Assembly (NCBI GenBank): GCA_028282785.1
Contig: JANQHE010000057.1
Coordinates: 62,001-126,000, forward strand
Direction: 5' to 3'
Length of the DNA stretch: 64,000 nt
DNA from: Bacteroidales bacterium
GTDB lineage: Bacteria > Bacteroidota > Bacteroidia > Bacteroidales > UBA12077
Position numbers and translations under genes: made by a program. Of the stretch, positions 38,013 to 53,129 are shown piece by piece (within the stretch, counting starts at the first letter, position 1; the number at the start of each line of letters is the position of its first letter). The notes beneath the pieces were generated by a model. That model did no database searches and had not been told where the DNA came from. It saw nothing but the letters and a program-made list of their open reading frames with translations.

Positions 38013-40847
38013 ATGATTAGTTTTAAGAATTTTATAAATTTTTTCAAAAAATCATCTAATAAAGAAATTCAACTTGTCAGTCTGTTTCTTACTCAGGTAA
38101 TCATTTTAGTTTTTATAATGTTTGTTGTTGTTCTATACTTTTGGATTAAAAGAGAATACAGCAATTTAAGATCGGAAATTTCTGACATACAAAGGAATTA
38201 TATTGAATCACAAAAAGAAAATATCAAAAGAGAAACGGAAAGAGCAGTTAGTTATATAAACTTTAATATACAACAAACTGAATCTAATATAAGATCTTCA
38301 TTAAAAAACCGGGTTGATGTTGCAGCTGATATTGCGCTTAATATTTATAATGAAAATAGCGATACTAAAACCGTAACAGAAATTAAAAGTTTAATAATTG
38401 ATGCTCTTAGTCCAATTCGGTTTGAAACTACCGGTAGTCGCTATTTTATAGGAAATTTAAGTGGTAAAATAGATCTTTTGCCTGAATATGAAGGAAAAAA
38501 CTCATATCACGGACAAGACGAAATAAGCAACATGGCCATTCAAGACATATTAAATATTATTCGTGTAGAAAAAGAAGGGTTTGTTTCCAATTACCCGACA
38601 AAACCAGGTGGAGATACTATAACCGGATCAAAAAAATTGACATATGTAAAACTTATTGAACCTCTCAACTGGTATATTGGGGCCAGTGAATTTTACAATA
38701 ATTTCAATGCTAGTATTCAACAAGAAGTTTTACTCTGGTTATCTAATTATAGGTTTGATAATGAAGGATATATTTTTGTAAATACTTACGATGGTGATGC
38801 TCTTTTAATAAATGGAGAAATCTTTTTAAAGGGAAAAAATTTATGGAACCTGGAAGATGATCCAAATGGAATAAAAGTAATTCAGGAAGAGCGAAAAGCC
38901 ATTAAAAATCCGGATGGTGATTTCATATATTATTCCTGGAGACAATCTACTAACGATAAAATTGGACAAAAAATGTCCTTTGTAAAAGGAATTCCCCAAT
39001 GGAAATGGATTGTTGGTGCAGGAGTTTATCTTGAAGAAATAAACCAGGTACTAGATGCGAAAGAAGCGGAATTAAAAAAAGTTATATTAAAAGATATTAT
39101 ATTCATTATTATTTGGTTAAGTATACTTTTCACTTTAATATATATTTTTGCTTTATACCTTTCGAGAAAAGCACAAAACAATATTCAATCATTTATTCGA
39201 TTTTTTAATGTGGCTTCATCTGAAAATATTCTAATAGATGAATCGAGTATAAACTTAACAGAATTTAAAGCCATTGCCAGTTCTGCTAACAAAATGATAT
39301 CTGAGATTAAACTATCTAAGGAAAGAAAACAGGAAAAAGAAGCTCACTATGAACAATTATTTGAAAAATCGCCTGAGGCAATTGTATATCTTAATGCAAG
39401 GGGTAATATCCAAAAAATAAATACTTCATTTACTAAACTATTTGGTTTCAATAATTCGGAAATTGCTGATAAAACCTTAGATGATCTTATTGTACCTCCG
39501 GAGTTAAAAAAAGAAGCTTTACTAATTAATAAAAACTTTCTTGAAGGCTCTACAAATCAAATTGAAGCAATTCGTACTACAAAAAACAAAGAAAAGGTTT
39601 ATGTGTCAATCGTTGGATTGCCAGTTAAATTATATGACAAACCAATAGGATATTATGTAATTTATAGAAACATAACCGATCAGAAGGAATTTGAGCAACA
39701 ATTATATACCTCCATGATTAAAGCGGAAGAATCAGATCGTTTAAAAACTTCTTTTTTAACAAATCTTTCTCACGAAATTAGAACTCCGTTAAATGCAATT
39801 ATCGGTTTCTCAACTTTACTAAATTCAAAAGAATTTCCTATAGAAGATCAAAAAGAGTATCTAAGGTTGATGGCCAATAGTGGCAGGTTGCTTCTTGAGA
39901 TTATAGATAATATTATTGATATCTCTAAAATCGAATCATCTACCCTTATTATAAATAAAACCAAAAGCAATTTTAACACAATGCTCGATGAGTTGTTGAT
40001 TGAGTTCACTGAATTAAAAAATAATATGGATTTAACCAATATAGAGCTTAAGTTAAACAAAGAAATAAAAGAAAAGGAACTCTTTATTCTTACTGATTTA
40101 AAAAGATTAAAACAAATATTTTCAAATCTCTTAGATAATGCATTTAAATTCACAGAAAGTGGATTAATTGAATTTGGATATCATGTGCAAAATAAAAACC
40201 TGGTATGTTATGTAAAAGATACCGGGATAGGAATTGAAGAAAAAGATCAGGAGTTTATTTTCGATCAGTTTAGACAAGCTGATGAGTCTTCAACTCGTAA
40301 ATATGGAGGAACAGGAGTAGGCTTAGCTCTTTGTAAAAGATTGGTTGAACTATTAGGGGGAAAATTATGGGTAGAATCTAAAAAAAATGAAGGTTCCAAA
40401 TTTAGTTTTACAATATCCTTTGATTTAATCAAACCAGAGAAAAAAATCAAGCCTAAAGTTGCTTTTAAGGATAATGTCGACTGGAGCTCAAAAAAAATAT
40501 TGATTGCCGAAGATGTTGAAGCAAACTACAAACTTCTGTATACTTTTCTTGAAAAAACTAAAGTCAATATTTTCTGGGCTAAAGATGGTAAAGAAGTTTT
40601 GCGAATGGTTGAAAAAGAACCTAATTATGACCTGATTTTAATGGATATTAACATGCCAATCATGACCGGTCATGATGCATTAGAAAAGCTAAAAGAAAGT
40701 GGTTATAAGATTCCGGTTGTAGCACAAACTGCATATGCATCTGATGATCAAAGATATGAAATGCAGGATTTGGGATATAGTGATTATATATTAAAACCAA
40801 TAACTTTCCAGGTTTTATTGCAAAAAATCTCAAAGTTTTTGAATTAA
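38013..40847 (+). CDS. Cache-domain hybrid sensor histidine kinase / response regulator
   Basis: The 944-aa protein has TM1 (about 28-48), a periplasmic region of about 290 residues with Cache features (ETTGSRYFIGNLSGKIDLLP; GIPQWKWIVGAGVYLEEI), TM2 (about 360-382), a PAS domain (about 447-560), the phosphoacceptor FLTNLSHEIRTPLN with H587, an HATPase domain (DTGIGIEE, YGGTGVGLAL) and a receiver domain with D878 in LILMDINMP. It is 24 bp upstream of the YgjP-like gene and lies before the four Cache receptors, so it is a candidate kinase partner for them, though it seems to be in a separate transcription unit. Confidence 0.92.
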   Translation: MISFKNFINFFKKSSNKEIQLVSLFLTQVIILVFIMFVVVLYFWIKREYSNLRSEISDIQRNYIESQKENIKRETERAVSYINFNIQQTESNIRSSLKNRVDVAADIALNIYNENSDTKTVTEIKSLIIDALSPIRFETTGSRYFIGNLSGKIDLLPEYEGKNSYHGQDEISNMAIQDILNIIRVEKEGFVSNYPTKPGGDTITGSKKLTYVKLIEPLNWYIGASEFYNNFNASIQQEVLLWLSNYRFDNEGYIFVNTYDGDALLINGEIFLKGKNLWNLEDDPNGIKVIQEERKAIKNPDGDFIYYSWRQSTNDKIGQKMSFVKGIPQWKWIVGAGVYLEEINQVLDAKEAELKKVILKDIIFIIIWLSILFTLIYIFALYLSRKAQNNIQSFIRFFNVASSENILIDESSINLTEFKAIASSANKMISEIKLSKERKQEKEAHYEQLFEKSPEAIVYLNARGNIQKINTSFTKLFGFNNSEIADKTLDDLIVPPELKKEALLINKNFLEGSTNQIEAIRTTKNKEKVYVSIVGLPVKLYDKPIGYYVIYRNITDQKEFEQQLYTSMIKAEESDRLKTSFLTNLSHEIRTPLNAIIGFSTLLNSKEFPIEDQKEYLRLMANSGRLLLEIIDNIIDISKIESSTLIINKTKSNFNTMLDELLIEFTELKNNMDLTNIELKLNKEIKEKELFILTDLKRLKQIFSNLLDNAFKFTESGLIEFGYHVQNKNLVCYVKDTGIGIEEKDQEFIFDQFRQADESSTRKYGGTGVGLALCKRLVELLGGKLWVESKKNEGSKFSFTISFDLIKPEKKIKPKVAFKDNVDWSSKKILIAEDVEANYKLLYTFLEKTKVNIFWAKDGKEVLRMVEKEPNYDLILMDINMPIMTGHDALEKLKESGYKIPVVAQTAYASDDQRYEMQDLGYSDYILKPITFQVLLQKISKFLN

Positions 40848-40871: not shown

Positions 40872-41591
40872 ATGCCCGATAAGATAATCCTCGTTGATCG
40901 TATTGGAGATGTTACGTTCCGTAAAAATAAACGATCTAAAAACGTAAGTATTACTATCCGTCCTTTGAAAGGAGTGATAGTAAATCTACCACAATATGTT
41001 AGTTATGGATTTGCAAAAAATATTGTTGAAAAAAAGCGAGATTGGATATTGAAACATCTTCCGAAAATTGAAAAGATCGAAAACAAACTAACCGTTTTTA
41101 CTCCATCAACAGACTTTTTTACAAAATACCGGCAATTAATCATTATACCTGAAAAAACAGACCATGTAAAAACATTAATTACACCGGAAAAAATCCTTAT
41201 TAAATATCCCGAACATATTCATGTAAAAGATCATAGAATTCAAGAAATAATTCGTAATACAATAACCAAAACCCTTAGAACTGAAGCTAAATCATACTTA
41301 CCTCAAAGAACTGAAGTTCTTGCCCAACAATTAAACTTCAAATTCAACAAGGTTTTCATAAAAAATACCAAAACTCTTTGGGGAAGTTGCAGTGCACAAA
41401 ACAACATAAACCTAAATTTACACTTAATGCGATTACCTGATCACTTAATTGATTATGTTATAATACATGAACTATGTCATACAATAGAAAAAAATCATGG
41501 TAGACAATTCTGGGAATTAATGGATTCTGTTCTTGGAAATGCTAAAAGTTTATCCAAAGAATTACAAAAGCACTCCATACAAATTTATTAA
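40872..41591 (+). CDS. YgjP-like (DUF45) metallopeptidase-fold protein
   Basis: The 239-aa protein carries the conserved WGSCS motif (170-174) and a zinc-type H199-E200-x-x-H203 (IIHELCHTIEKNHG) with a further H209, the marks of the YgjP/DUF45 branch of M48/SprT-like proteins. It is cytoplasmic as far as the sequence shows. The substrate is not known. It follows the hybrid kinase by 24 bp and is likely cotranscribed with it. Confidence 0.88.
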   Translation: MPDKIILVDRIGDVTFRKNKRSKNVSITIRPLKGVIVNLPQYVSYGFAKNIVEKKRDWILKHLPKIEKIENKLTVFTPSTDFFTKYRQLIIIPEKTDHVKTLITPEKILIKYPEHIHVKDHRIQEIIRNTITKTLRTEAKSYLPQRTEVLAQQLNFKFNKVFIKNTKTLWGSCSAQNNINLNLHLMRLPDHLIDYVIIHELCHTIEKNHGRQFWELMDSVLGNAKSLSKELQKHSIQIY

Positions 41592-41623
41592 AGGCTAAAT
41601 CCCTAATAATTACTTAGCATTAA

Positions 41624-41654
41624 TTTGATTTTTTCTTAAAATAATGTAAGTTTA
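41624..41654 (+). promoter_or_regulatory. Promoter of the Cache-receptor operon
   Basis: TTTG (41624-41627), a 19-nt spacer and TAAGTTTA (41647-41654, one mismatch to TAnnTTTG) form a good Bacteroidota sigma-A-type promoter. Transcription would start near 41661, about 20 nt before the first receptor ATG at 41682. It is the only such element I find ahead of the five-gene block. Confidence 0.45.
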
Positions 41655-41681
41655 AACGTTATTTTCTAATAGACCTCTTAC

Positions 41682-43976
41682 ATGAAGATCAATATAAAAA
41701 TGATGGTATATATCCTATCAACTTCGATGTTGATTTTTATTGCATCTGTTGGTTATATTACCTCAAAATCAAGGCAATTAGCATTAGAAGAAGCTAAAGA
41801 AATTGCTAACAAAAATGCACATGAGTATGCAAATTTGATAAAATCAAAATTAGTTGCCGATCTTAAAATTGTGAAGACTCTTGCACAATCAGGACAAGCA
41901 TATCAAAAAACTGATTGGAAAAACTGGAATAATATCTTTCTTGAACAACAATTACATGTTATAACCGAAAACCCGCATTATTTAGCAGTAGCAACAAGTT
42001 GGGAACTTAATCATATAGACCCTGAATGGGACAGACCCTTTGGTCGTTATTTAAATGGATGGGTAAAAGATCAAAATGGAATTATATCGCAGATTGAAAC
42101 AAGACTGAATACCGAAGGAGACGATATAACAAGTAATTATTATAAAATGAAGGCCTCCGGAAATTCCATGATTGTTGATCCTAAACTATGGTCACCAACT
42201 GGAAAAGCAGAAGATGCATATATAAATGCAAATATCTCAGTTCCTGTAAAACTCGGAAATACATTTATCGGACTGGCAGGCATAGATGTTGATTTACAAC
42301 TATTTCAGGATATTATTGTGAAAATTAGCCCTTTTCAAATGAGTTATGCATTTCTTCTTTCAAATGATGGAACTTATGTCGCTCATCCAAATATGAGCCT
42401 AATGGGAAAATTAATCGGGACAGAATTCCCGGAATTTAATGAACAATACCATATAGTTGATAATGTAAAAGAAGGACTTAACTTTTCTTTTACTCATAAA
42501 AATGAATATGGTCAAAAGGATTTTTATGTATTTGCTCCTTTAATAATTGATGAAATAGATACGCCATGGTCGTTAGCTATTGTTGTACCATACAAAGTCA
42601 TTACTGCAAAAGCAAAATCTATCCTCATTAATGCTCTTTTTGTTAGTTTTCTTGGATTAATTCTTTTAATAATTGTTATTTGGATTATTGCCCGAAATAT
42701 TACTCAACCCATAGTAAAAGTTACAAATACCCTTAAGGATATTGCAAAAGGCAAAATTGATGAATCGCTAAAAGTAAATATTAAATCAAAAGATGAAGCT
42801 GGTGAAATGGCTTTAGCTTTAAACACCTCAATAGATGGTTTAAATAAAAAAGCTGATTTTGCCAACCAAATAGGCTCCGGGAATATTACAGAAAAGTTAG
42901 AATTATTAAGTGAAAAAGATAAACTTGGTCAATCGCTTGTTAGCATGCAAAATAGTTTATTGAAAGCTAAATCCGATGAAGAAAGAAGAGCGCTTGAGGA
43001 TAATAAACACAGGTGGACTAATGAAGGATTAGCAAAATTTGCAGATATACTTCGTAGGAACAATGACGACATTGATCTACTTGCAAATGATATCATTAAA
43101 AACCTGGTATATTACCTTGACGGGAACCAGGGAGGTTTATTCATTTTAAACGACGAAGATAAAAATGATGTATTTTATGAGCTTATTTCTGCATTTGCAT
43201 ACGATAGGGAGAAACACTTAACAAAAAAGGTAGGCCTTGGAGAAGGTTTAATTGGGACTTGTGCTGCTGAAAAAAATACAATTTATTTGACTGAAATTCC
43301 ACAAGATTATATGGAAATTACATCAGGTTTGGGAGAGGCTAATCCGAACAGTATATTAATTGTTCCTCTCAGAACCGAAAATGAGGTATTAGGTGTTGTT
43401 GAAATTGCATCATTTAATAGCTTTAAGCAACATGAGATAGAATTTACTGAACAAGTTGCAGAAAGCATCGCTTCGACATTAAAATCTGTTCAAATTAACT
43501 CCAAAACCTCTCAGTTACTTGAACAATCTCAGCAACAAGCCGAAGAAATGGCGGCTCAAGAAGAAGAAATGCGTCAGAATATGGAAGAACTTCAGGCAAC
43601 TCAAGAAGAGTCTACAAGAAAAGGTGAAGAAATTACAGGAATCTTAAATGGAATAGATCAATTTCTACTTAAAGCAGAATTCGATTTAAACGCTTCACTT
43701 ATATTAGCTAACGATTTGTTTATAAGGAAATTTGGTTATTCGCTAAATGAAATTGTAGGAAAGGAAATTGAAGAATTTGTTTCAGAAAAGGATGTTACAA
43801 AATTTCAAAAGATATTAAATACAGTAATGAGTGGAAACTCTCATCAAGAAATTACGTTCTTAAAAGATAAAGAAGGAAACGAATTAAAGCTAGTTACATC
43901 GTTCACTCCTGTAATAGTCAATGAAAGTTTTGAAAAAATATTATTTTTAGCAATAGATATTAGTGATTATCAATGA
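41682..43976 (+). CDS. Receptor 1: Cache-HAMP-GAF-coiled coil-PAS
   Basis: The 764-aa membrane protein has TM1 (about 8-26), a periplasmic double Cache region (about 36-295, with SWELNHIDPEWDRPFGR), TM2 (about 311-337), a HAMP domain (to about 395), a GAF domain (about 460-606, GEGLIGTCAAEKNTIY; IVPLRTENEVLGVVEIASFN), a coiled coil (EEMAAQEEEMRQNMEELQAT) and a PAS domain (about 655-764). There is no His-kinase, GGDEF, EAL, MCP or phosphatase domain. Of the four tandem paralogues it is the most diverged at the N-terminus (MKINIKMMVYIL). Receptor 2 begins 16 bp later. Presumed role: ligand sensing, signalling through the coiled coil to an unknown partner. Confidence 0.85.
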   Translation: MKINIKMMVYILSTSMLIFIASVGYITSKSRQLALEEAKEIANKNAHEYANLIKSKLVADLKIVKTLAQSGQAYQKTDWKNWNNIFLEQQLHVITENPHYLAVATSWELNHIDPEWDRPFGRYLNGWVKDQNGIISQIETRLNTEGDDITSNYYKMKASGNSMIVDPKLWSPTGKAEDAYINANISVPVKLGNTFIGLAGIDVDLQLFQDIIVKISPFQMSYAFLLSNDGTYVAHPNMSLMGKLIGTEFPEFNEQYHIVDNVKEGLNFSFTHKNEYGQKDFYVFAPLIIDEIDTPWSLAIVVPYKVITAKAKSILINALFVSFLGLILLIIVIWIIARNITQPIVKVTNTLKDIAKGKIDESLKVNIKSKDEAGEMALALNTSIDGLNKKADFANQIGSGNITEKLELLSEKDKLGQSLVSMQNSLLKAKSDEERRALEDNKHRWTNEGLAKFADILRRNNDDIDLLANDIIKNLVYYLDGNQGGLFILNDEDKNDVFYELISAFAYDREKHLTKKVGLGEGLIGTCAAEKNTIYLTEIPQDYMEITSGLGEANPNSILIVPLRTENEVLGVVEIASFNSFKQHEIEFTEQVAESIASTLKSVQINSKTSQLLEQSQQQAEEMAAQEEEMRQNMEELQATQEESTRKGEEITGILNGIDQFLLKAEFDLNASLILANDLFIRKFGYSLNEIVGKEIEEFVSEKDVTKFQKILNTVMSGNSHQEITFLKDKEGNELKLVTSFTPVIVNESFEKILFLAIDISDYQ

Positions 43977-43992
43977 TTAAAATAAGTTTGGT

Positions 43993-46302
43993 ATGAAATT
44001 AAAGCTTGGTTTAAAAAACAAAATGCAACTTTATCTTATTTCTTTATCAGTTGTAATTTATGCAATTGCCTTAGGATATATAAGTATTAATGCTAAGAAA
44101 ACAACTTATAAAGATTCTGTTGAATTGGTAAATACAAATGCCGAAAAGTTTGCATTCAAAATGCAATCGGATTTAAACGAATACATGGCAGTAGTTAGAA
44201 CTTTAGCCAATGCTTTTAAGGTATATAAAGACATGCCTCGAGAAGAATGGGATCCGCTATTTATTGAAATGTATGATAAAATTTATCGAGATAATCCGAT
44301 TTTTTACAAATTATGGGATAGTTGGGAGTTAAGTAAAATAGATGAAAATTGGGATAGGCCAACCGGACGAATTGCTAATGTATTCTCTCGTATTAATGGT
44401 CGTGTTGTACAAAAACAAGACATTAGAAGTTTGGATGGAGATAATCCAACCTATGCTAATATTAAAATCCAGGCTAAGGAAATGATGTTACCAATATATT
44501 TTGATGTATTTACTGATGAAGGTGAAACCTCAAAATTAATGACCAGTTTAGTTACTCCAATAATGGTTAATAATGAATACCATGGAATGGTTGGGATAGA
44601 CATTATTTTGGCACGATTCCAAAAAATGGTTGAAGAAATTAGTCTTTCAAAATTTGAAGGAAATTATGCCTTCTTAATTACAGAAGAAGGCAAATATGCA
44701 GGCCATCCGGAAACTCATTTATTAAACCAAATCGCTGAATATAAAATTAAATCCGGTAAAGACTTTAATATTATAAATGCTATTAAAGACGGAGAAAGTT
44801 TTAATTTAGAAGTACTTGACGATTTAGGTAAAACCCACTATATAGCTTTTTCACCTATTAATATTGGAAGAACAAGTACTCCTTGGTTTTTAGGTATTTC
44901 TGTTCCAATTAATTCGATTATGGCACAGGCAGACAGGAATTTTATGATATCGTTGATAGTTGGTATAATTGGAATTTTAATCATCAGTTTAGCAATATAT
45001 ATTGTTACTAAAAACATTTCTGACCCTATTCAAAATATTACTGATTTTCTGAAAGAACTTGCTAAAGGAAAAACTGATCAGCAATTAGATTTAAATATAA
45101 AATCTGGTGATGAAATAGAAGAAATGACCTACGCATTAAAAACCTCTGTTGAAGGATTAAATAAGAAAACTGATTTCGCCAATCGTATTGAATCCGGAGA
45201 TTTAGATCACGAATTTGAATTACTAAGTGATGATGATATGCTTGGTAAAGCTTTGGTAGAGATGCGCGATAGTTTAAAGAAAGCCCGAGTTGATGAAGAA
45301 AATAGAAAAATTGAAGACGAAAAAAGAAGGTGGAGCAATGAAGGATTAGCCAAATTTGCGGATATTTTACGTCAAAATAATGATAATTTAGACGAACTTT
45401 CATATCAAATTATAAAGAATCTAATTCATTACCTTGAAGCTAACCAAGGTGGGTTATTTCTAATTAACGATGAAGATAAAAATAATATTTTTCTTGACTT
45501 AGTTGCTGCTTTTGCTTTTGATAGAAAAAAACATTTAGAGAAGCGAATCGAAATGGGTGATGGAGTCGTTGGAGCAGTAGCATTAGAAAAACTAACTTCT
45601 TACATTGAAGATTTACCGGAAGATTATATAACAATTACATCAGGATTAGGAGACTCAAACCCTCGTTCATTAGTTGTTGTTCCTCTTAAAATGGAAGAAA
45701 AAGTGTATGGAGTAATTGAGATTGCATCGTTCAATAAATTCGAAGAATACCAAATTGAATTTATTGAAAAGGTTGCGGAAAATATAGCCGCTACATTATC
45801 ATCGGTAAAAATAAATATACAAACCAATGAACTTTTAGAAAAGTTTCAACAGCAATCTGAAGAGATGGCCGCTCAAGAAGAAGAAATGCGCCAAAACATG
45901 GAAGAACTGCAGGCTACGCAAGAAGAAGCAGGTAGAAAAAATGCCGAAATGGAAAGTTTTTTTCATGCCTTGGAAGAGTCAAGTTGCATTATTGAATATA
46001 GTCCTGAGGGATTTATTACCAAAGTAAATGACAACTATCTTAATCTTCTTAATTTAAGAAGAGATGAAGTTCTTGGAGCACATCATTCTGATAAGATGGA
46101 GTTTACCTCAAAACAAAAAGCTGAATATGATAAATTTTGGAATGATTTATCATCTGGTAAAACCAGAAAAGAAAAAGCAACCTATTCAATCGATGGTAAA
46201 AAAACTGAATTCATTGAAGTATACACTCCGGTTCTGGATGAAAACAAATCTATAATAAGAATACTAAAAATCTCGAATTCATTAAAAGAGTTCAATGAAT
46301 AA
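43993..46302 (+). CDS. Receptor 2: Cache-HAMP-GAF-coiled coil-PAS
   Basis: The 769-aa protein has the same layout as receptor 1: TM1 (about 13-31), Cache (DSWELSKIDENWDRPTGR), TM2 (about 316-340), HAMP, GAF (GDGVVGAVALEKLTSYIED), the shared coiled coil and a final PAS. The PAS has the chemoreceptor-like features GAHHS, a FWNDLSSGK spacing and YTPVLDENKSIIRILKIS, similar in form to PAS domains of Aer/BdlA-type chemoreceptors, but no methyl-accepting domain follows. Its GAF lacks the Cys seen in the GTCA/GNCA loop of the other three receptors (GAVA here). Receptor 3 begins 9 bp later. Confidence 0.85.
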   Translation: MKLKLGLKNKMQLYLISLSVVIYAIALGYISINAKKTTYKDSVELVNTNAEKFAFKMQSDLNEYMAVVRTLANAFKVYKDMPREEWDPLFIEMYDKIYRDNPIFYKLWDSWELSKIDENWDRPTGRIANVFSRINGRVVQKQDIRSLDGDNPTYANIKIQAKEMMLPIYFDVFTDEGETSKLMTSLVTPIMVNNEYHGMVGIDIILARFQKMVEEISLSKFEGNYAFLITEEGKYAGHPETHLLNQIAEYKIKSGKDFNIINAIKDGESFNLEVLDDLGKTHYIAFSPINIGRTSTPWFLGISVPINSIMAQADRNFMISLIVGIIGILIISLAIYIVTKNISDPIQNITDFLKELAKGKTDQQLDLNIKSGDEIEEMTYALKTSVEGLNKKTDFANRIESGDLDHEFELLSDDDMLGKALVEMRDSLKKARVDEENRKIEDEKRRWSNEGLAKFADILRQNNDNLDELSYQIIKNLIHYLEANQGGLFLINDEDKNNIFLDLVAAFAFDRKKHLEKRIEMGDGVVGAVALEKLTSYIEDLPEDYITITSGLGDSNPRSLVVVPLKMEEKVYGVIEIASFNKFEEYQIEFIEKVAENIAATLSSVKINIQTNELLEKFQQQSEEMAAQEEEMRQNMEELQATQEEAGRKNAEMESFFHALEESSCIIEYSPEGFITKVNDNYLNLLNLRRDEVLGAHHSDKMEFTSKQKAEYDKFWNDLSSGKTRKEKATYSIDGKKTEFIEVYTPVLDENKSIIRILKISNSLKEFNE

Positions 46303-46311
46303 TTATAAACT

Positions 46312-48624
46312 ATGAAAATAAAACTTAAGATACAGCAAAAAATTCAGATTTTTATAATCACTGCCTCCATTCTTATCTATTTAATAGCTCTTGGATATAT
46401 CAGTATTAATGCCCGTAAAATGGCATACAATGATGCTATTATAGTAACCGACAAATATGTTGGCGAAGTTGCAAAGGACATAAAAGCTCAACTTGATGCT
46501 GATATGAGTGTTGTTAAAACATTATCAAATGCATATTTAGTTTATGAGTCTATGCCTAATCCCGAATGGAAACATTTATTTGAGCAAATGTATATAAAGG
46601 TATTTTCTAAAAATCCACATTTCTATGCTCTTTGGGATAGCTGGGAATTAAAAGTAATTGACCCTAATTGGACCAAGTCAATTGGCCGCTATTCAATGGT
46701 AGTAGCAAGAGAAATGGATGGCTCTCTTATAGTTGATTCTAGCTACAGAAGCATGGAAACCGAATCAAGAATATATGATAAGATAATAAAACATAGAAGA
46801 ATACCTTCTATTTGGGAACCATATCTCGATGAATATACAGTGGGAGAAAATGAACAACAATTAATGACAACTTTAAACTCTCCTATTATGAACAATGGCC
46901 AATATGTCGGTATTGTTGCGATAGATATTACTCTTGACAATTTCCAAAAACTTGTGGCTGATATTAAACCTTACGAGGGTAGTTATTCTTATTTAGTTTC
47001 TTATGAAGGGACCATTGCAGGCCATCCAAATCTAGAATTCTTAAATAATAAATTAGAAGATGTCTTTCCTGAAGATTATGTAAATAATGATATACTTGAA
47101 AAAATCAAAGCAGGAGAAGCTTTTAACTATATAAGCAAGGATGAAAATGGAGTAGAAACATATTATTCTTATTCTCCTATACATGTAGTTGACACTAACA
47201 CCCCATGGTCAATTGCAATTTCTGTTCCTGTTAAAACCATAATGGCTAAAGCAATTCTAAATTTTAGAATCTCATTAATTGTAGGTATTCTGGGAATATT
47301 ATTAATGGTTATTATTATTGCTATTATTGGTCGAAATATTACAAACCCTATTACTAAAATTACGGTTTTACTAAAGAAAATTGCTAAAGGTTATATTGAT
47401 GAGACTATGAGAATTAATATAAAAACGAGAGATGAAATTGAAGAAATGGCTAATGCATTAAACCAATCGGTTAATGGTTTAAATAATAAGGTAGAATTTG
47501 CTAATTCAATAGGCCAAGGCAAATTAAATGAAGAATTCGAGCTACTCAGTGAAGAGGATATTTTAGGAAAGTCTTTGCTAGAAATGAGAGCAAGTTTGGT
47601 AAAAGCAGAAGAAGAAGATCAAAAACGTAAAATTGAAGACGAAAAAAGAAGATGGATCAACGAAGGATTAGCACAATTTGGAGATATATTAAGGCAAAAC
47701 AATGATAATTTGGAAAAACTTGCTACTGAGATCATAATGAATCTTGTAGGCTATTTAAAGGCTAATCAGGGAGGAATATTTATTCTAAATGACGACGATA
47801 AAGAAAATATATATTTTGACCTTCTTTCATCTTATGCCTATGACAGAAGAAAGTTTATGCAAAAACAAATTGAACTTGGCGAAGGTTTAGTTGGAAATTG
47901 TGCCATAGAAAAGAAAACTATTTATATGACAGATATTCCTCAGGATTATATGGAAATTACATCTGGCTTGGGAGGTTCAAATCCAAATAGTTTATTAATA
48001 GTTCCTTTAAAACTTGAAGAAGAAGTATTAGGTGTATTGGAAATTGCTTCGTTTAATATATTTGAAAAATATGAAATAGAATTTATCGAAAAACTAGCAG
48101 AAAGTATTGGCTCAACTTTATCATCAGTTAGAGTAAATATCCGTACAAATGAGTTATTAAACAGATCACAGCAACAGGCAGAGGAAATGGCGGCCCAAGA
48201 AGAAGAAATGCGTCAAAATATGGAAGAGTTAAAAGCTACTCAAGAAGAATCATTACGAAAAAGTACTGAAATGGAAGGTCTGGTTGAAGCTCTTAATACT
48301 TCAAGTTTTGTAATTGAATATGATTTAGATGGATACATACAAAGTGTTAATGATTATTATCTGAATTTAGTAGGTTTATCAAGAGAAGAAATTGTTGGTA
48401 CTCACCACTCACTAAATATGGAATTTACAGCTCAACAAAAAGATGCTTATGACAATTTCTGGAGAGAGTTAAGAGCTGGAAAGATCCAAAAAGAAACTAC
48501 AAAAGTGAAAGTCAATAATAAGGAATTGGTATTTGCAGAAACTTACACTCCTCTGAGAAATGAAGAGGGTAATGTTTATAAAATACTTAAAATTTCGACA
48601 AATATTACTGATTATCACACCTAA
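46312..48624 (+). CDS. Receptor 3: Cache-HAMP-GAF-coiled coil-PAS
   Basis: The 770-aa paralogue has TM1 (about 13-31, IQIFIITASILIYLIALGYI), Cache (DSWELKVIDPNWTKSIGR, so the WDRP seen in the others is altered to WTKS), TM2 (about 318-342), HAMP, GAF (GEGLVGNCAIEKKTIYMTDI), the coiled coil and a PAS with GTHHS and YTPLRNEEGNVYKILKIS. The altered Cache motif may mean a different ligand. It is closest to receptor 4 (shared MAYNDA after TM1, LLEMRASLVKAEEED). Receptor 4 begins 26 bp later. Confidence 0.85.
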   Translation: MKIKLKIQQKIQIFIITASILIYLIALGYISINARKMAYNDAIIVTDKYVGEVAKDIKAQLDADMSVVKTLSNAYLVYESMPNPEWKHLFEQMYIKVFSKNPHFYALWDSWELKVIDPNWTKSIGRYSMVVAREMDGSLIVDSSYRSMETESRIYDKIIKHRRIPSIWEPYLDEYTVGENEQQLMTTLNSPIMNNGQYVGIVAIDITLDNFQKLVADIKPYEGSYSYLVSYEGTIAGHPNLEFLNNKLEDVFPEDYVNNDILEKIKAGEAFNYISKDENGVETYYSYSPIHVVDTNTPWSIAISVPVKTIMAKAILNFRISLIVGILGILLMVIIIAIIGRNITNPITKITVLLKKIAKGYIDETMRINIKTRDEIEEMANALNQSVNGLNNKVEFANSIGQGKLNEEFELLSEEDILGKSLLEMRASLVKAEEEDQKRKIEDEKRRWINEGLAQFGDILRQNNDNLEKLATEIIMNLVGYLKANQGGIFILNDDDKENIYFDLLSSYAYDRRKFMQKQIELGEGLVGNCAIEKKTIYMTDIPQDYMEITSGLGGSNPNSLLIVPLKLEEEVLGVLEIASFNIFEKYEIEFIEKLAESIGSTLSSVRVNIRTNELLNRSQQQAEEMAAQEEEMRQNMEELKATQEESLRKSTEMEGLVEALNTSSFVIEYDLDGYIQSVNDYYLNLVGLSREEIVGTHHSLNMEFTAQQKDAYDNFWRELRAGKIQKETTKVKVNNKELVFAETYTPLRNEEGNVYKILKISTNITDYHT

Positions 48625-48650
48625 ATAATATTTCCCAAATTTTATGAACT

Positions 48651-50684
48651 ATGGAACTTAAGCTTAAAATTCAACAAAAAATACAATTATTCATCATTTC
48701 TGCTTCAATTATTATTTATGTGGCAGCAATTGGATATATTAGCTTTAACGCTCGTAAAATGGCATATAATGATGCCATTGAAGTTACCAATTATCAAGTA
48801 AGTGAAGCGGCAAAAGATATTAAGGCGAATTTAAGTGCAGAATTAGCAGGGTTAGCCTCATTAGCCGATGCATTTAAAATCTATAAGGATTTCAATAAAG
48901 ATGAATGGCAAGAACAGGTTCATAAAATGTATTATAATATTTTTTCCGAAAATGAAAACGTGTATGCACTATGGTCAAGTTGGGAACTTAATATGATTGA
49001 TCCTGATTGGGATAGACCTACCGGTCGTATATCACACACTTATTGGAGAGAAAATGGAATAGTAAAGGATCAAACTGAGTTAAGAAGCCTTGATGGCGAT
49101 TCCCCTCTATATGCAGAAACAAAGGCTACGTTAGTGCCTTCAATCGATGAACCCTATTTTGATGTTGTAACCGATGGTACCAGAGAATCTTTGCTTATGA
49201 CTAGTTTAAAGGCTCCTGTTATTGATAATGGAAAATTCGTCGCCGTTGTTGCGTTCGACATTACTTTATCACAGCTTCAGGAATTAGTAGAACAAATTAA
49301 ACCTTTTGAGGGTAGTTATGCTTTTATTATTTCCAATTTGGGTTTGATTGCAGGACATCCGCATAAAGAACTTTTAAACAAAAACATAATAGATATCTTC
49401 CCGGAAGATAATAAAGAGCATAATATAGCTCATAATATTAAAATCGGTGAAGCATTTAGTTATACCAATAAGGATGAAAATGGAATTAAAAATTATGTTA
49501 CTTATGCTCCAATATTTATTGGAGAAAATAATGCTCCATGGTCAATTGCCATATCAGTACCGGAAAGAACTATAATGGCTGATGCAATCCGAAACTTCAG
49601 AATATCATTATTTGTTGGAATAATTGGTATATTATTAATGGCACTTGTAATTGCTATAATCGGTAAAAACATTACCAATCCAATTACAAAAATCACCGAC
49701 TTATTAAACAAAATTGCGAAAGGCCATATTGGTGAAGAGATGAAAATAAAAATTGAATCGGGTGACGAAATTGAAGAAATGGCGAAAGCACTGAATCAAT
49801 CGGTGGAAGGATTAAATAAAAAAGCTGAATTTGCAAATTCAATTGGTCAAGGTAAATTAGATGAAAAGTTTGATTTATTAAGCGATGAAGACGTACTTGG
49901 AAAATCGTTGCTTGAAATGAGAGCAAGTTTGGTAAAAGCCGAAGAAGAAGATAAAAAACGCAAGACAGAAGATGAAAAACGTAGATGGGCAAATGAAGGA
50001 TTAGCAAAATTTGCAGATATTTTAAGACAAAATAACGACAATCTTGAAATGTTAGCTACTGAAATAATAATGAACCTTGTCGATTATTTAAAAGCTAATC
50101 AGGGAGGTGTATTTATCTTAAATGATGAAGACAAAGAAAATCTTCATTTCAACTTATTATCGGCATTTGCATACGACAGAAGAAAATATATGCAAAAACA
50201 TATTAAGATCGGTGAAGGTTTAATTGGCACATGTGCAATTGAAAAGAAAACGGTTTATATGACCGATCTTCCGCAGGATTATATGGAAATCACATCTGGT
50301 TTGGGAGGTGCTAGTCCGGGTAGTCTTTTAATTGTACCTTTAAAACTTGAAGAAGAAGTGTTAGGGGTATTAGAAATAGCTTCATTTAATGTATTTGAAA
50401 AACACGAAGTTGAATTTGTTGAAAAATTGGCTGAAAGTATTGGTGCAACACTTTCTTCAGTGAGAATTAATATTCGTACAAATGAGTTATTGGAAAGATC
50501 ACAACAGCAAGCCGAAGAAATGGCAGCTCAGGAAGAAGAAATGCGACAGAATATGGAAGAGTTACAGGCTACTCAGGAAGAAATGAAGCGAAAGGAAGAT
50601 CATATGAAAAAAGTGATCAATGAAATGCAGGTTCAGGAAGAAAAATTAAAACAGACAATTGAGAAATATAAAACCAAATCTTAA
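48651..50684 (+). CDS. Receptor 4: Cache-HAMP-GAF ending in a coiled coil
   Basis: The 677-aa paralogue shares TM1, Cache (SSWELNMIDPDWDRPTGR), TM2 (about 317-341), HAMP, GAF (GEGLIGTCAIEKKTVYMTDL) and the EEMAAQEEEMRQNMEELQAT coiled coil with the others, but it has no PAS. After the shared coiled coil it extends the helix (MKRKEDHMKKVINEMQVQEE) and ends KYKTKS. The natural-looking end rather than a frame break suggests that the loss is fixed. It is 11 bp upstream of the hydrogenase-like gene, so it may be the one that contacts that protein. Confidence 0.85.
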   Translation: MELKLKIQQKIQLFIISASIIIYVAAIGYISFNARKMAYNDAIEVTNYQVSEAAKDIKANLSAELAGLASLADAFKIYKDFNKDEWQEQVHKMYYNIFSENENVYALWSSWELNMIDPDWDRPTGRISHTYWRENGIVKDQTELRSLDGDSPLYAETKATLVPSIDEPYFDVVTDGTRESLLMTSLKAPVIDNGKFVAVVAFDITLSQLQELVEQIKPFEGSYAFIISNLGLIAGHPHKELLNKNIIDIFPEDNKEHNIAHNIKIGEAFSYTNKDENGIKNYVTYAPIFIGENNAPWSIAISVPERTIMADAIRNFRISLFVGIIGILLMALVIAIIGKNITNPITKITDLLNKIAKGHIGEEMKIKIESGDEIEEMAKALNQSVEGLNKKAEFANSIGQGKLDEKFDLLSDEDVLGKSLLEMRASLVKAEEEDKKRKTEDEKRRWANEGLAKFADILRQNNDNLEMLATEIIMNLVDYLKANQGGVFILNDEDKENLHFNLLSAFAYDRRKYMQKHIKIGEGLIGTCAIEKKTVYMTDLPQDYMEITSGLGGASPGSLLIVPLKLEEEVLGVLEIASFNVFEKHEVEFVEKLAESIGATLSSVRINIRTNELLERSQQQAEEMAAQEEEMRQNMEELQATQEEMKRKEDHMKKVINEMQVQEEKLKQTIEKYKTKS

Positions 50685-50695
50685 GAAATCCATTA

Positions 50696-52087
50696 ATGAC
50701 TGAAACTACCTTTTTTACAGTTGACGAAGAAAAATGTGTTAACTGTCATCAGTGTATCGCTGTTTGTTCAGCGAAGTATTCTAATAATGGTATTAACGAT
50801 ATGATTGAGGTAGACAGTAATTTATGCATTGGATGCGGAGAATGTATAAAAGCATGCTCTCACAATGCCAGAATTCCTGTCGATGATTTTAAAATTGCAA
50901 TGAATGCCCTTGAGAACAAAGAAAAAGTTATTGCCATTGTCGCTCCTGCTGTTGCATCAAACTTTCCAAACCGGTATTTAAACCTTAACGGGTGGTTAAA
51001 ATCTTTAGGAATTGATGCAATTTTTGATGTTAGTTTTGGCGCGGAACTAACAGTCAAATCTTATGTTGAACATATTCAAACGAATAAACCTAAATTGGTT
51101 ATTGCTCAACCTTGCCCTGCCATTGTGAGGTATATACAAATTTATAGGCCAGAACTTATACCATACCTTGCTCCGGCAGATAGCCCTATGGTTCATAGCA
51201 TGAAAATGGTTAAAGATTTCTATCCGGAATTTAAAAACCATAAAATGTTGGTAGTATCTCCATGCTTAGCTAAAAAAGCAGAGTTTGAAGAAACAGGAAT
51301 TGGAAATTATAATGTAACGATCACCAAAATTCAAAACTATCTTTCAGATGAAAAAATTGATTTAAGCGCTTTTCCTGAAGTGGAGTTTGATAATGATCCT
51401 GCTGAAAGAGCTGTTTTATTCTCGACTCCGGGAGGTTTATTGGAAACTGCTGAAAGAAAAATTCCAAGTATTCGATATTTAAGTAGAAAAATCGAAGGAC
51501 CTCAAACAACTTATAAATATCTTGATCATTTACCTGAACAACTAAAAAAAGGAATGTCTCCTTTGCTTATAGATTGTTTGAATTGCGAATTAGGTTGTAA
51601 TGGGGGAACGGGAACAGCTAACCATGAAAAATCCCCTGATGAATTGGAATATTATATACATCAAAGAAGAACAGAAGCACAAGAAATTCATAAAACCGAA
51701 GAAAATAATATCTCTTATCTATCTAAGTTTGAAAACACTGTAAATAAATATTGGAAGAAAGATTTATATAACAGAAGTTATAAAGATTTATCCTCCAATA
51801 CTAACGAAATTAAGATTCCAAATGAAAAGCAATTACAAGAAATCTATTTTATAATGGACAAGCATGAGGATTCGGATATAAAGAATTGCTCAAGCTGTGG
51901 TTATGATTCGTGTGAGTTAATGGCAACTGCAATTTTTAACAATCTAAACAAAATAGAAAATTGTCATCATTACTTACATGAAGAGTTAAGTTCAAGAACA
52001 GAAGAAATAAACAATCAAAAACAAGAAATTATTAAGGATACAGAGGCTGTTTTACATCTGATTCAAAAAATAAGAGAGATGGTATAA
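50696..52087 (+). CDS. [FeFe]-hydrogenase-like sensory iron-sulfur protein
   Basis: The 463-aa protein has two ferredoxin-type clusters (C14, C17, C20, C24; C44, C47, C50, C54), then an H-cluster domain with the four cluster Cys conserved: C140 (AQPCPA), C190 (SPCLAKK), C297 and C301 (CELGC). The proton-relay Cys next to C140 is Pro139, and the Met of the usual MPC motif is Ser188, so it is not a standard catalytic HydA. A further four-Cys motif follows (C398, C401, C406, C423: CSSCGYDSC, then C), resembling the PF04060 FeS domain, and the protein ends in a coiled coil. No small subunit or maturation gene is nearby. It resembles sensory or redox-signalling hydrogenase groups; H2 binding is not proven. 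Confidence 0.82.
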   Translation: MTETTFFTVDEEKCVNCHQCIAVCSAKYSNNGINDMIEVDSNLCIGCGECIKACSHNARIPVDDFKIAMNALENKEKVIAIVAPAVASNFPNRYLNLNGWLKSLGIDAIFDVSFGAELTVKSYVEHIQTNKPKLVIAQPCPAIVRYIQIYRPELIPYLAPADSPMVHSMKMVKDFYPEFKNHKMLVVSPCLAKKAEFEETGIGNYNVTITKIQNYLSDEKIDLSAFPEVEFDNDPAERAVLFSTPGGLLETAERKIPSIRYLSRKIEGPQTTYKYLDHLPEQLKKGMSPLLIDCLNCELGCNGGTGTANHEKSPDELEYYIHQRRTEAQEIHKTEENNISYLSKFENTVNKYWKKDLYNRSYKDLSSNTNEIKIPNEKQLQEIYFIMDKHEDSDIKNCSSCGYDSCELMATAIFNNLNKIENCHHYLHEELSSRTEEINNQKQEIIKDTEAVLHLIQKIREMV

Positions 52088-52091
52088 ACAT

Positions 52092-52135
52092 AAAAAAGCG
52101 ATCTCCCAAAACTATATAGGATGATCGCCTTTTTC
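52092..52135. terminator. Terminator at the end of the receptor/hydrogenase-like operon
   Basis: AAAAAGCGATC pairs with GATCGCCTTTTT (one-base bulge) around a loop of about 18 bases, with an A-run on the left and a T-run on the right. It lies 4 bp after the hydrogenase-like stop and 17 bp before the end of the convergent TPR gene, so it may serve both strands. Confidence 0.75.
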
Positions 52136-52151
52136 CTTATATGATCATATT

Positions 52152-53129
52152 TTAGTTACACTTAACAACATGCTCCATTTGGTACTTAGCTGCTTCTGCA
52201 TAATCTCCCTTATTTGCTTTTCCATAAGCTTCACACGCAGCAGTATTATCTCCTTTACCATAGTAAGAATTGCCCATTTCGAAATGAACTTTTGCATCTT
52301 TAGTATCAACTTCACCCATTATTTCTAATGCTTTGTTTGAAGCTTCAATAGAAGCATCCCACTTTGATTGTTTGTTATAAATAACAGCTAATTGATAGTA
52401 TACATCTTCGTCTGCTTCTTTATATTCCATTAAAGTATTAAAATATTTTTCAGCATCTGTCCATTTTTGTGTTTTAATTGCATTTGCTCCGGCAACCAAA
52501 TAGTAGTTACTTGCCAATTTTTTGGCTGTACCTTCGGATTTTGTATCATTCTTAGCTGCAGCTGCATTTAAGGCTCCATCAATTGCTTGCTTAAAGTTTG
52601 CTTCATCATCTTGTTCTTTATATACCTGTGCTTTTCTAACATAAGACATTGGATATTTAGGATCTAACTCAATAGATTTATCCAAAGCAACAACCGCCCC
52701 GGCATAATCTTTTGATTTTAACAAGCCTGCACCTTTTGCATAGTAAATCTTTGGGATAGTTCTTTCTGCTTTTTTCTTCATCTTAGCATCTTCATAAGTA
52801 TCAGAATACTCAACTACCTTATTGAAAGCTGCAATACACTCATCGTATTTCTTTTCTTTATAAAGACTCATTGCATGCTTATATTGCATATTAGGTATTT
52901 GAGATGCAGCAGTAGCTCTATTTTCACTATTTGATAAATCAAGTTCATCATACATGTTTACACAATTTTTAAATGATTCAATCGCTCCTAAATAATCTTT
53001 TGCTTGCGATTTAGCTACTCCATCCTTTAATGCCTCAACAGCTTCTGCCTCTGATTGAGCATTTAATGTTACTGCAAAACCCAATAATACAATCATTGCA
53101 GTTAATCTACTCATAATTTTGAATTTCAT
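52152..53129 (-). CDS. Exported tetratricopeptide-repeat protein
   Basis: The 325-aa protein has a signal peptide (about 1-25, ending NAQ) and then repeated 34-residue helical pairs, for example AKDYLGAIESFKNCVNMY, KKYDECIAAFNKVVEYSD, KDYAGAVVALDKSIELDPKY, QKWTDAEKYFNTLMEYKE and SKWDASIEASNKALEIMG. TPR arrays scaffold protein contacts, so this is probably a periplasmic adaptor. No catalytic motif. It is a single gene, convergent with the hydrogenase-like gene. Confidence 0.88.
   Translation of the reverse strand: MKFKIMSRLTAMIVLLGFAVTLNAQSEAEAVEALKDGVAKSQAKDYLGAIESFKNCVNMYDELDLSNSENRATAASQIPNMQYKHAMSLYKEKKYDECIAAFNKVVEYSDTYEDAKMKKKAERTIPKIYYAKGAGLLKSKDYAGAVVALDKSIELDPKYPMSYVRKAQVYKEQDDEANFKQAIDGALNAAAAKNDTKSEGTAKKLASNYYLVAGANAIKTQKWTDAEKYFNTLMEYKEADEDVYYQLAVIYNKQSKWDASIEASNKALEIMGEVDTKDAKVHFEMGNSYYGKGDNTAACEAYGKANKGDYAEAAKYQMEHVVKCN

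Follow-up and report, generated by a model that had tools for sequence, protein, structure and literature searches.

The window analyzed here is a 64,000-nucleotide stretch of a Bacteroidales genome (assembly GCA_028282785.1, contig JANQHE010000057.1, positions 62,001 to 126,000). It contains a run of five tandem open reading frames (ORFs), all on the plus strand, that code for four membrane receptors (R1 to R4) and a protein related to sensory [FeFe]-hydrogenases (HYD). R1 (41682..43976), R2 (43993..46302), R3 (46312..48624), R4 (48651..50684; 677 amino acids [aa]), and HYD (50696..52087; 463 aa) are separated by 16, 9, 26, and 11 base pairs (bp), and these coordinates agree with the original prediction of four codirectional paralogues with 9- to 26-bp gaps and an iron-sulfur gene 11 bp farther on. 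Our comparisons support a genetic coupling of HYD to a receptor whose GAF domain continues into a coil (GAF-coil), which recurs in seven lineages. They suggest that the unit is a pair, formed by HYD and a last receptor lacking a PAS domain, rather than a five-protein array.

The GAF domain scores above the Pfam cut-off in all four receptors. Their earlier description as Cache-HAMP-GAF receptors holds at the level of Pfam domains, some scores of R1 and R2 falling under the cut-off: dCache_1 (PF02743, cut-off 45) reaches 51.4 in R3 and 55.1 in R4 but 35.3 in R1 and 35.9 in R2, and HAMP is above its cut-off in R1, R3, and R4 and just under it in R2 (24.4 versus 25). A C-terminal PAS domain was detected by Pfam in R1 and R3 and weakly in R2 (NCBIfam, 20.7 versus a cut-off of 22.9); none was found in R4, whose chain ends in the coil. 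Pfam retrieved neither MCPsignal (PF00015) nor any other output domain in R1 to R4. Since pairwise identity among the four is 29 to 49% in the Cache region and 60 to 83% in GAF, the outside part has diverged while the inside part has been kept, and the coil behind GAF is likewise highly constant. The AlphaFold2 model of R4 (predicted local distance difference test [pLDDT] score 83, predicted template modeling score 0.50) ends in a single helix spanning residues 584 to 676. The best matches of its periplasmic fold in the PDB are the ligand domains of the double-Cache chemoreceptors MkcA, PacA, and TlpQ; those proteins carry the signalling hairpin of methyl-accepting chemotaxis proteins (MCPs), whereas R4 has the GAF-coil in its place. 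McpU is also among the nearest folds; TlpQ is associated with histamine and McpU with putrescine. The best conserved cysteine column in the receptor alignment, considered as a possible redox switch, is at position 528 and holds Cys in 14/19 sequences.

HYD comprises two 4Fe-4S ferredoxin repeats, an Fe_hyd_lg_C domain (112 bits, cut-off 22.1), and a C-terminal PF04060 domain (24.7, cut-off 23), and Pfam found in its chain no linked PAS or output domain of the kind that its fused relatives possess. It aligns to CpI across the H-domain, its AlphaFold2 model (pLDDT 93.4) retrieves [FeFe]-hydrogenases with Foldseek, and the model closes with a C-terminal helix formed by residues 424 to 462 (51965..52081). 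We counted residue conservation over 80 members of the HYD clade, using the register of the HYD-CpI alignment and CpI residue numbering. The H-cluster cysteines (140, 190, 297, and 301) and K193 and E196, the equivalents of K358 and E361, are invariant (80/80); so are Cys 398, 401, and 406 of the C-terminal cluster, and its Cys 423 is present in 79/80. The equivalent of C299, the proton-transfer cysteine, is Pro in 79/80 members, and the equivalents of M353 and M497 are Ser and Leu, respectively, in all 80. These sequence features, namely, the H-cluster cysteines with the Lys/Glu couple, replacement at the C299, M353, and M497 positions, and a C-terminal [4Fe-4S] site, are those of sensory (group C) [FeFe]-hydrogenases; HYD and its relatives form a clade of modules that resemble such sensors. 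The clade is further marked by the signatures QPC (HYD residues 138 to 140, window 51107-51115) and DCLxCxxGC (residues 293 to 301, window 51572-51598), with an extra cysteine, C294, beside an H-cluster ligand in 79/80 members.

A passage of PMC10055695 describes sensory enzymes as altered at C299, M353, and M497, with Pro in about 10% at the first position and Ser in about 32% at the second. The Thermotoga maritima group C enzyme TmHydS and the phosphatase-linked sensor of Ruminococcus albus, compared here by description only, resemble HYD in the replacement of these three residues and are likewise proposed to sense H2; TmHydS has a PAS domain, whereas the HYD of the window does not. TamHydS, a group D enzyme, is like HYD a stand-alone sensor with a C-terminal [4Fe-4S] cluster and no PAS domain. 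According to the portion of PMC13104023 consulted, more than 75% of 70 group D sequences have an Asp immediately preceding both the first and the last cysteine of that cluster. In the HYD clade, this residue is mostly Asn (at position 397, Asn in 64 and Asp in 16 of 80; at position 422, Asn in 76, Ser in 3, a gap in 1, and Asp in 0), which sets HYD apart from group D.

The fold retrieved by Foldseek is also what a catalytic hydrogenase would show, but we consider such a function for HYD highly improbable: the proton-transfer cysteine is replaced by Pro, the M353 and M497 positions are altered, its relatives are fused to signalling domains, and the genome codes for three better catalytic candidates (293 to 326 bits), all on a contig named C43. 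More serious, if still rather unlikely in our judgment, is the alternative that HYD lacks the [2Fe] subsite, has [4Fe-4S] clusters only, and reports not H2 but redox state, oxygen, or iron. The Leu at the M497 position weakens the H-cluster claim, since the M497L variant of CpI lacks a properly integrated [2Fe] site, as stated in the same passage of PMC10055695, and the Pro at the C299 position points in the same direction; yet TmHydS, with Ser at the M497 position, is reported there to take up [2Fe], and all H-cluster cysteines and the K358 and E361 equivalents are invariant. The maturation protein HydG gives support to both sides. It scores above the cut-off in 26 of the 33 HYD-bearing genomes examined and is present in two pieces in the nearest relative of the source genome (G004); the remaining six, with HydG neither above the cut-off nor in pieces, each have another Fe_hyd_lg_C gene of at least 190 bits (the hits in G034 and G084 being identical). 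With HydG or another Fe_hyd_lg_C gene in every case, H2 machinery is therefore at hand in 33/33 genomes.

To place HYD among its relatives, we scanned genome contigs with a profile and took the best 80 of 225 loci. ORFs were obtained from 78 of these, 79 in all, as one locus (L090) was counted twice, its second ORF falling outside the HYD clade, and two (L093 and L138), in which no HYD ORF passed the E threshold of 1e-60, were left out of the architecture counts. Architectures were called with home-made profiles, with which Pfam agreed on samples. Fifty-five of the 79 ORFs are fused to an MCP module, 8 to SpoIIE (some as PAS-SpoIIE), 3 to a kinase, and 1 to a CheA-like module, 3 have other architectures, and 9 stand alone. 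A GAF-coil ORF lies directly upstream on the same strand in 7 of the 9 stand-alone cases and in 9/11 once the window and L179, a further pair from a separate genome search, are added; for the fused HYDs the count is 0/67, and for the other architectures it is 0/3. As the GAF-coil profile was built from R1 to R4, a very divergent GAF neighbor of a fused HYD could have been missed in this comparison. Both exceptions among the stand-alone HYDs have a particular setting: one (L097), which shares 92% identity with a relative fused to an MCP module, starts 179 bp away from the end of its contig, and the other (L146) overlaps an MCP ORF, as in a split fusion. In genome G207 (L182), a contig end cuts the HYD ORF, and the ORF lying 226 bp upstream of it (217 aa) is not a GAF gene; this case was not counted. 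The gap between the two genes is -1 to 33 bp in 7/9 pairs. Because the window, L072, and L073 represent one genus, the pairs amount to seven lineages, five of them in different families (f1, f43, f19, f115, and f55), with no family given for L074 and L076. Of 393 genomes sampled from the order, 28 contain a HYD match at E 1e-90 or better; a sample of 395 from the class gave 2, which are already included in the 28.

Within the genus of the source organism, the receptor array and HYD part company. An R2-like receptor was found in all 19 of the 19 genomes drawn, and a HYD orthologue in only 3/20. We examined 14 array loci from 13 HYD-less genomes; where visible, the order is YgjP, receptors, a TPR gene, and a Schlafen-like gene, with orthologues of R1 present with or without HYD. 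All 11 array ends that lie wholly within a contig lack HYD, and the TPR gene there adjoins the last receptor. The neighborhood comparison thus counts against the original proposal that the five proteins form one array, which we reject because HYD is missing from other syntenic arrays of the genus; what stands of that proposal is the coupling of HYD to a GAF-coil receptor, and what falls is the inclusion of R1 to R3, which occur in the genus without HYD. Since the array does not need HYD, we favor the pair as the unit. The HYD-less arrays have three or four receptors, the first of them closest to R4 rather than R1 in L292, L294, and L295. There are four receptors in the window and in G004 and probably five in G018, with R1 at another contig end (L213). 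In G005, the R1 orthologue is split into three ORFs (L287:2696-5001) while the other array receptors are whole, which reflects either sequencing error or decay. A locus in G063 (L230, contig C178) has five tandem dCache-HAMP-GAF-coil-PAS receptors and no HYD within the 15 kb examined; receptor arrays of this family do occur on their own.

The last receptor itself distinguishes the two kinds of arrays. Taking PAS status from tail lengths and domain calls rather than crude pattern labels, we found a HYD-type tail on the last receptor in all three species (3/3) with HYD. Of the 11 ends without HYD, that of G011 alone has such a tail; the last receptor of G007 is PAS-less but has a different one, and a PAS domain closes the remaining nine. 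The array is thus independent of HYD, and HYD is tied to a special last receptor. Loss of HYD in several species and gain in few both fit the genus pattern. In R4 the tail corresponds to residues 643 to 677 (50577..50681), and stand-alone HYDs have a C-terminal tail of their own, modeled as the terminal helix in the HYD of the window. When each lineage in turn was withheld from a tail profile, its tail outscored every one of the 16 unpaired tails, G011 excepted, in 5/7 lineages; one sequence scored as unpaired (L074_6671) shares an operon with a HYD.

Phylogenetic analysis gave different pictures for the two partners. In the HYD tree, the paired HYDs fall in a single branch of ten rows (SH-like approximate likelihood ratio test, 95) that includes one MCP-fused row (L088), and a single clade of paired HYDs is compatible with the approximately unbiased (AU) test (p 0.43). 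The GAF-coil tree, from which 3/75 domains shorter than 150 aa were left out, led us to reject one clade of HYD-linked receptors (AU p 0.00018; p 0.027 for the five lineages with the tail), while the receptors of L074, L075, L095, and L147 alone, all outside the genus, could form one clade (p 0.16). As the HYD-linked receptors are not one clade, either partners were swapped or the adjacency arose repeatedly. The sensor parts of the paired GAF-coil proteins vary as well: L179 has Cache_3-Cache_2, others have dCache_1, and no Pfam match was obtained in the N termini of the paired proteins of L076, L095 (where HAMP is present), and L147.

These results bear on a further alternative, that the genes are operon mates whose products make no contact, the array being an independent ligand-sensing module and HYD a separate, cotranscribed regulator. 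The common HYD-less state in the genus, the modular locus, whose upstream kinase is missing in two species, and the origin of the receptors of the pairs from different GAF lineages would all fit it; the placement of GAF-coil genes upstream of stand-alone rather than fused HYDs, the tight spacing in most pairs, and the receptor tail common to 5/7 lineages would not, and on this balance we regard it as an improbable explanation, though one to be taken seriously.

We instead favor the reading that HYD, as an [FeFe]-hydrogenase module of the sensory type, has lost its output domain and acts in trans via the receptor, a proposition that we hold to be evenly poised. Its basis in sequence is the retention of the H-cluster cysteines and hydrogen-bonding residues, the disappearance of the proton-transfer cysteine, and the fusion of relatives to outputs. 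At its cluster, HYD would bind H2 or report the redox state of the cytoplasm; its terminal helix would pack on the coil tail of the PAS-less R4, both segments being proposed docking helices; and R4, the candidate partner, would combine the outside Cache ligand with the inside H2 or redox signal. R1 to R3 would be paralogues with diverged Cache and conserved GAF-coil regions, able to work without HYD. A more specific version, which we put forward tentatively, is a split H2 receptor in which the coil of a Cache-GAF receptor serves as the docking site for a soluble [FeFe]-hydrogenase sensor, so that one receptor registers an outside ligand and inside H2 together. On this proposal, the sensor family would have apparently switched once from an MCP-fused ancestor and then paired with GAF-coil proteins of varied sensor parts (dCache_1, Cache_3-Cache_2, or short unmatched N termini), the coil tail serving as a portable docking part.

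Several observations weigh against this interpretation. Besides the Leu at the M497 position, the absence of HYD from all 11 visible array ends in other species of the genus, and the rejection of a single clade of linked receptors, G011 keeps a PAS-less receptor with a HYD-type tail yet has no HYD, and L076 and L179 are the two lineages whose tails the profile did not recognize. In L147, 297 bp separate the two genes of the pair, and Pfam sees neither Cache nor HAMP in the GAF protein. HydG separates HYD-bearing from HYD-less genomes poorly, being above the cut-off in 4/7 of the former (G004 has it in pieces, and G030 and G034 have none, a point that also favors a [4Fe-4S]-only protein) and in 13/30 HYD-less genomes of the order and 14/17 of the genus. 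The genomes in this comparison are largely metagenome-assembled genomes (MAGs) and are not independent, and the distribution of HydG is compatible with an H2 role of HYD without being proof of one.

As for the receivers of the signal, the chemosensory or SpoIIE-phosphatase pathways of the organism would be the likeliest. The GAF-coil family is large, with 12 matches in the source genome, of which one is fused to PAS-SpoIIE and one adjoins CheB in a chemotaxis run. In six genomes (L068, L234, L243, L244, L245, and L247), we observed a gene for a small GAF protein followed by one for a GAF-coil-(PAS)-SpoIIE protein, and signals of GAF-coil proteins might converge on the latter. The upstream hybrid kinase, considered as an obligate output, was rejected, since no such kinase precedes YgjP in L213 or L291. 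The pair could also feed chemotaxis directly, with HYD derived from an MCP-fused sensor and receptor and HYD together replacing an MCP or modulating CheA. The preponderance of MCP fusions among the HYD relatives agrees with this idea, as does the fusion of a HYD module to a HATPase domain in a Treponema MAG (L150:2757-5495), which a one-sequence CheA profile matches and in which Pfam recognizes HATPase only. A locus on contig C54 of the source genome (L065) points the same way: one run contains CheY-like, CheA, and CheW proteins, two MCPs, CheR, a HATPase protein, CheD, and CheB and continues with a GAF-coil-PAS3 protein and a TPR-kinase, and the Cache-HAMP part of one of its MCPs is 51% identical to that of R4. 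MCPsignal is nevertheless absent from HYD as it is from the receptors, and Pfam found no che domain in the nine neighboring proteins scanned, so that we judge this route distinctly unlikely. Hydrogen sensors of termite treponemes were reportedly the subject of work by Ballor in 2012.

Contig C43 of the source genome (G000, L059 to L063; 88.5 kb) is an H2 island, with six Fe_hyd_lg_C genes and HydG. It carries a gene for a HYD module fused to a histidine kinase, with a response regulator next in line (L062:10780-13173), and a HYD-PAS gene that neighbors one for a SpoIIE phosphatase (L062:3040-6086); these two other HydS-like proteins of the genome are 26 to 27% identical to HYD. A distinct 450-aa hydrogenase-like protein with PF04060 (L061:3927-5279), 21% identical to HYD, is encoded in a run of small genes that includes an ORF matching a HATPase profile.

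In HydDB, sensory enzymes are divided, all as putative groups, into kinase-linked (C1), chemotactic (C2), and phosphatase-linked (C3) forms, according to the part of PMC5037454 consulted, and in PMC9431212 the C2 hits were discarded. Compared by architecture rather than by HydDB classification, HYD shares with the MCP-linked C2 group two N-terminal [4Fe-4S] sites, the H-cluster site, and a C-terminal [4Fe-4S] site, but it differs in lacking an output domain and in being encoded behind GAF-coil receptors. The signal output of sensory [FeFe]-hydrogenases is an open question in the field: for TamHydS, the 2026 study PMC13104023 reports that H2 does not reduce the C-terminal cluster, and it regards finding the interaction partner as critical. 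The comparative genomics presented here names a candidate partner and interface for one branch, both testable with short protein pieces, and the receptor may be the partner through which the hydrogen-sensor-like HYD passes on its signal. If this is true, a split H2 receptor would integrate a ligand sensed outside the cell and a gas or redox signal from within. We found no paper with a title or abstract on HydS paired with Cache-HAMP-GAF receptors in the open-licence PMC literature, a scope that makes this a weak negative.

Two genes precede the array on the same strand. A hybrid histidine kinase (dCache_2-PAS-HisKA-HATPase-REC by Pfam; 38013..40847, plus strand) is followed after 24 bp by a YgjP-like metallopeptidase (40872..41591, plus strand), the upstream syntenic anchor kept across the genus, and R1 begins 90 bp farther on. 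In G004 and a number of further species the kinase likewise precedes YgjP, but it is absent there in G018 (L213) and G007 (L291); it is dispensable, though possibly on the same transcript. The plausible promoter that had been placed at 41624 did not hold up. A sigma-70 scan gave TTAGCA-17-TAAAAT at 41614-41642, with 9/12 positions matched, and 60 sites in all against 66.3 expected by chance; a Bacteroidota-type pattern had no match near 41624 and three matches in the window against 6.1 expected. We rejected both types as no better than chance. Given the same-strand genes and their short gaps, the array transcript may begin farther upstream. Relative to G004, the five genes have nonsynonymous divergence (dN) of 0.11 to 0.21 and synonymous divergence (dS) of about 2.0 to 2.5, the latter saturated, and from these values all five look to be under purifying selection. 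PADLOC gave no match for HYD or the Schlafen-like neighbor. Downstream, the terminator predicted at 52092 is real as a structure: a hairpin at about 52092-52134, with an A run before and a T run after it, has a core stem at 52098-52128 and an energy of -12.5 kcal/mol (z -4.4), equaled by none of 200 shuffles, and was missing from the output of a simple terminator scan. It is plausibly shared with the convergent gene for the TPR-repeat protein (Pfam; 52152..53129, minus strand), the downstream syntenic anchor that adjoins the last receptor in HYD-less species.

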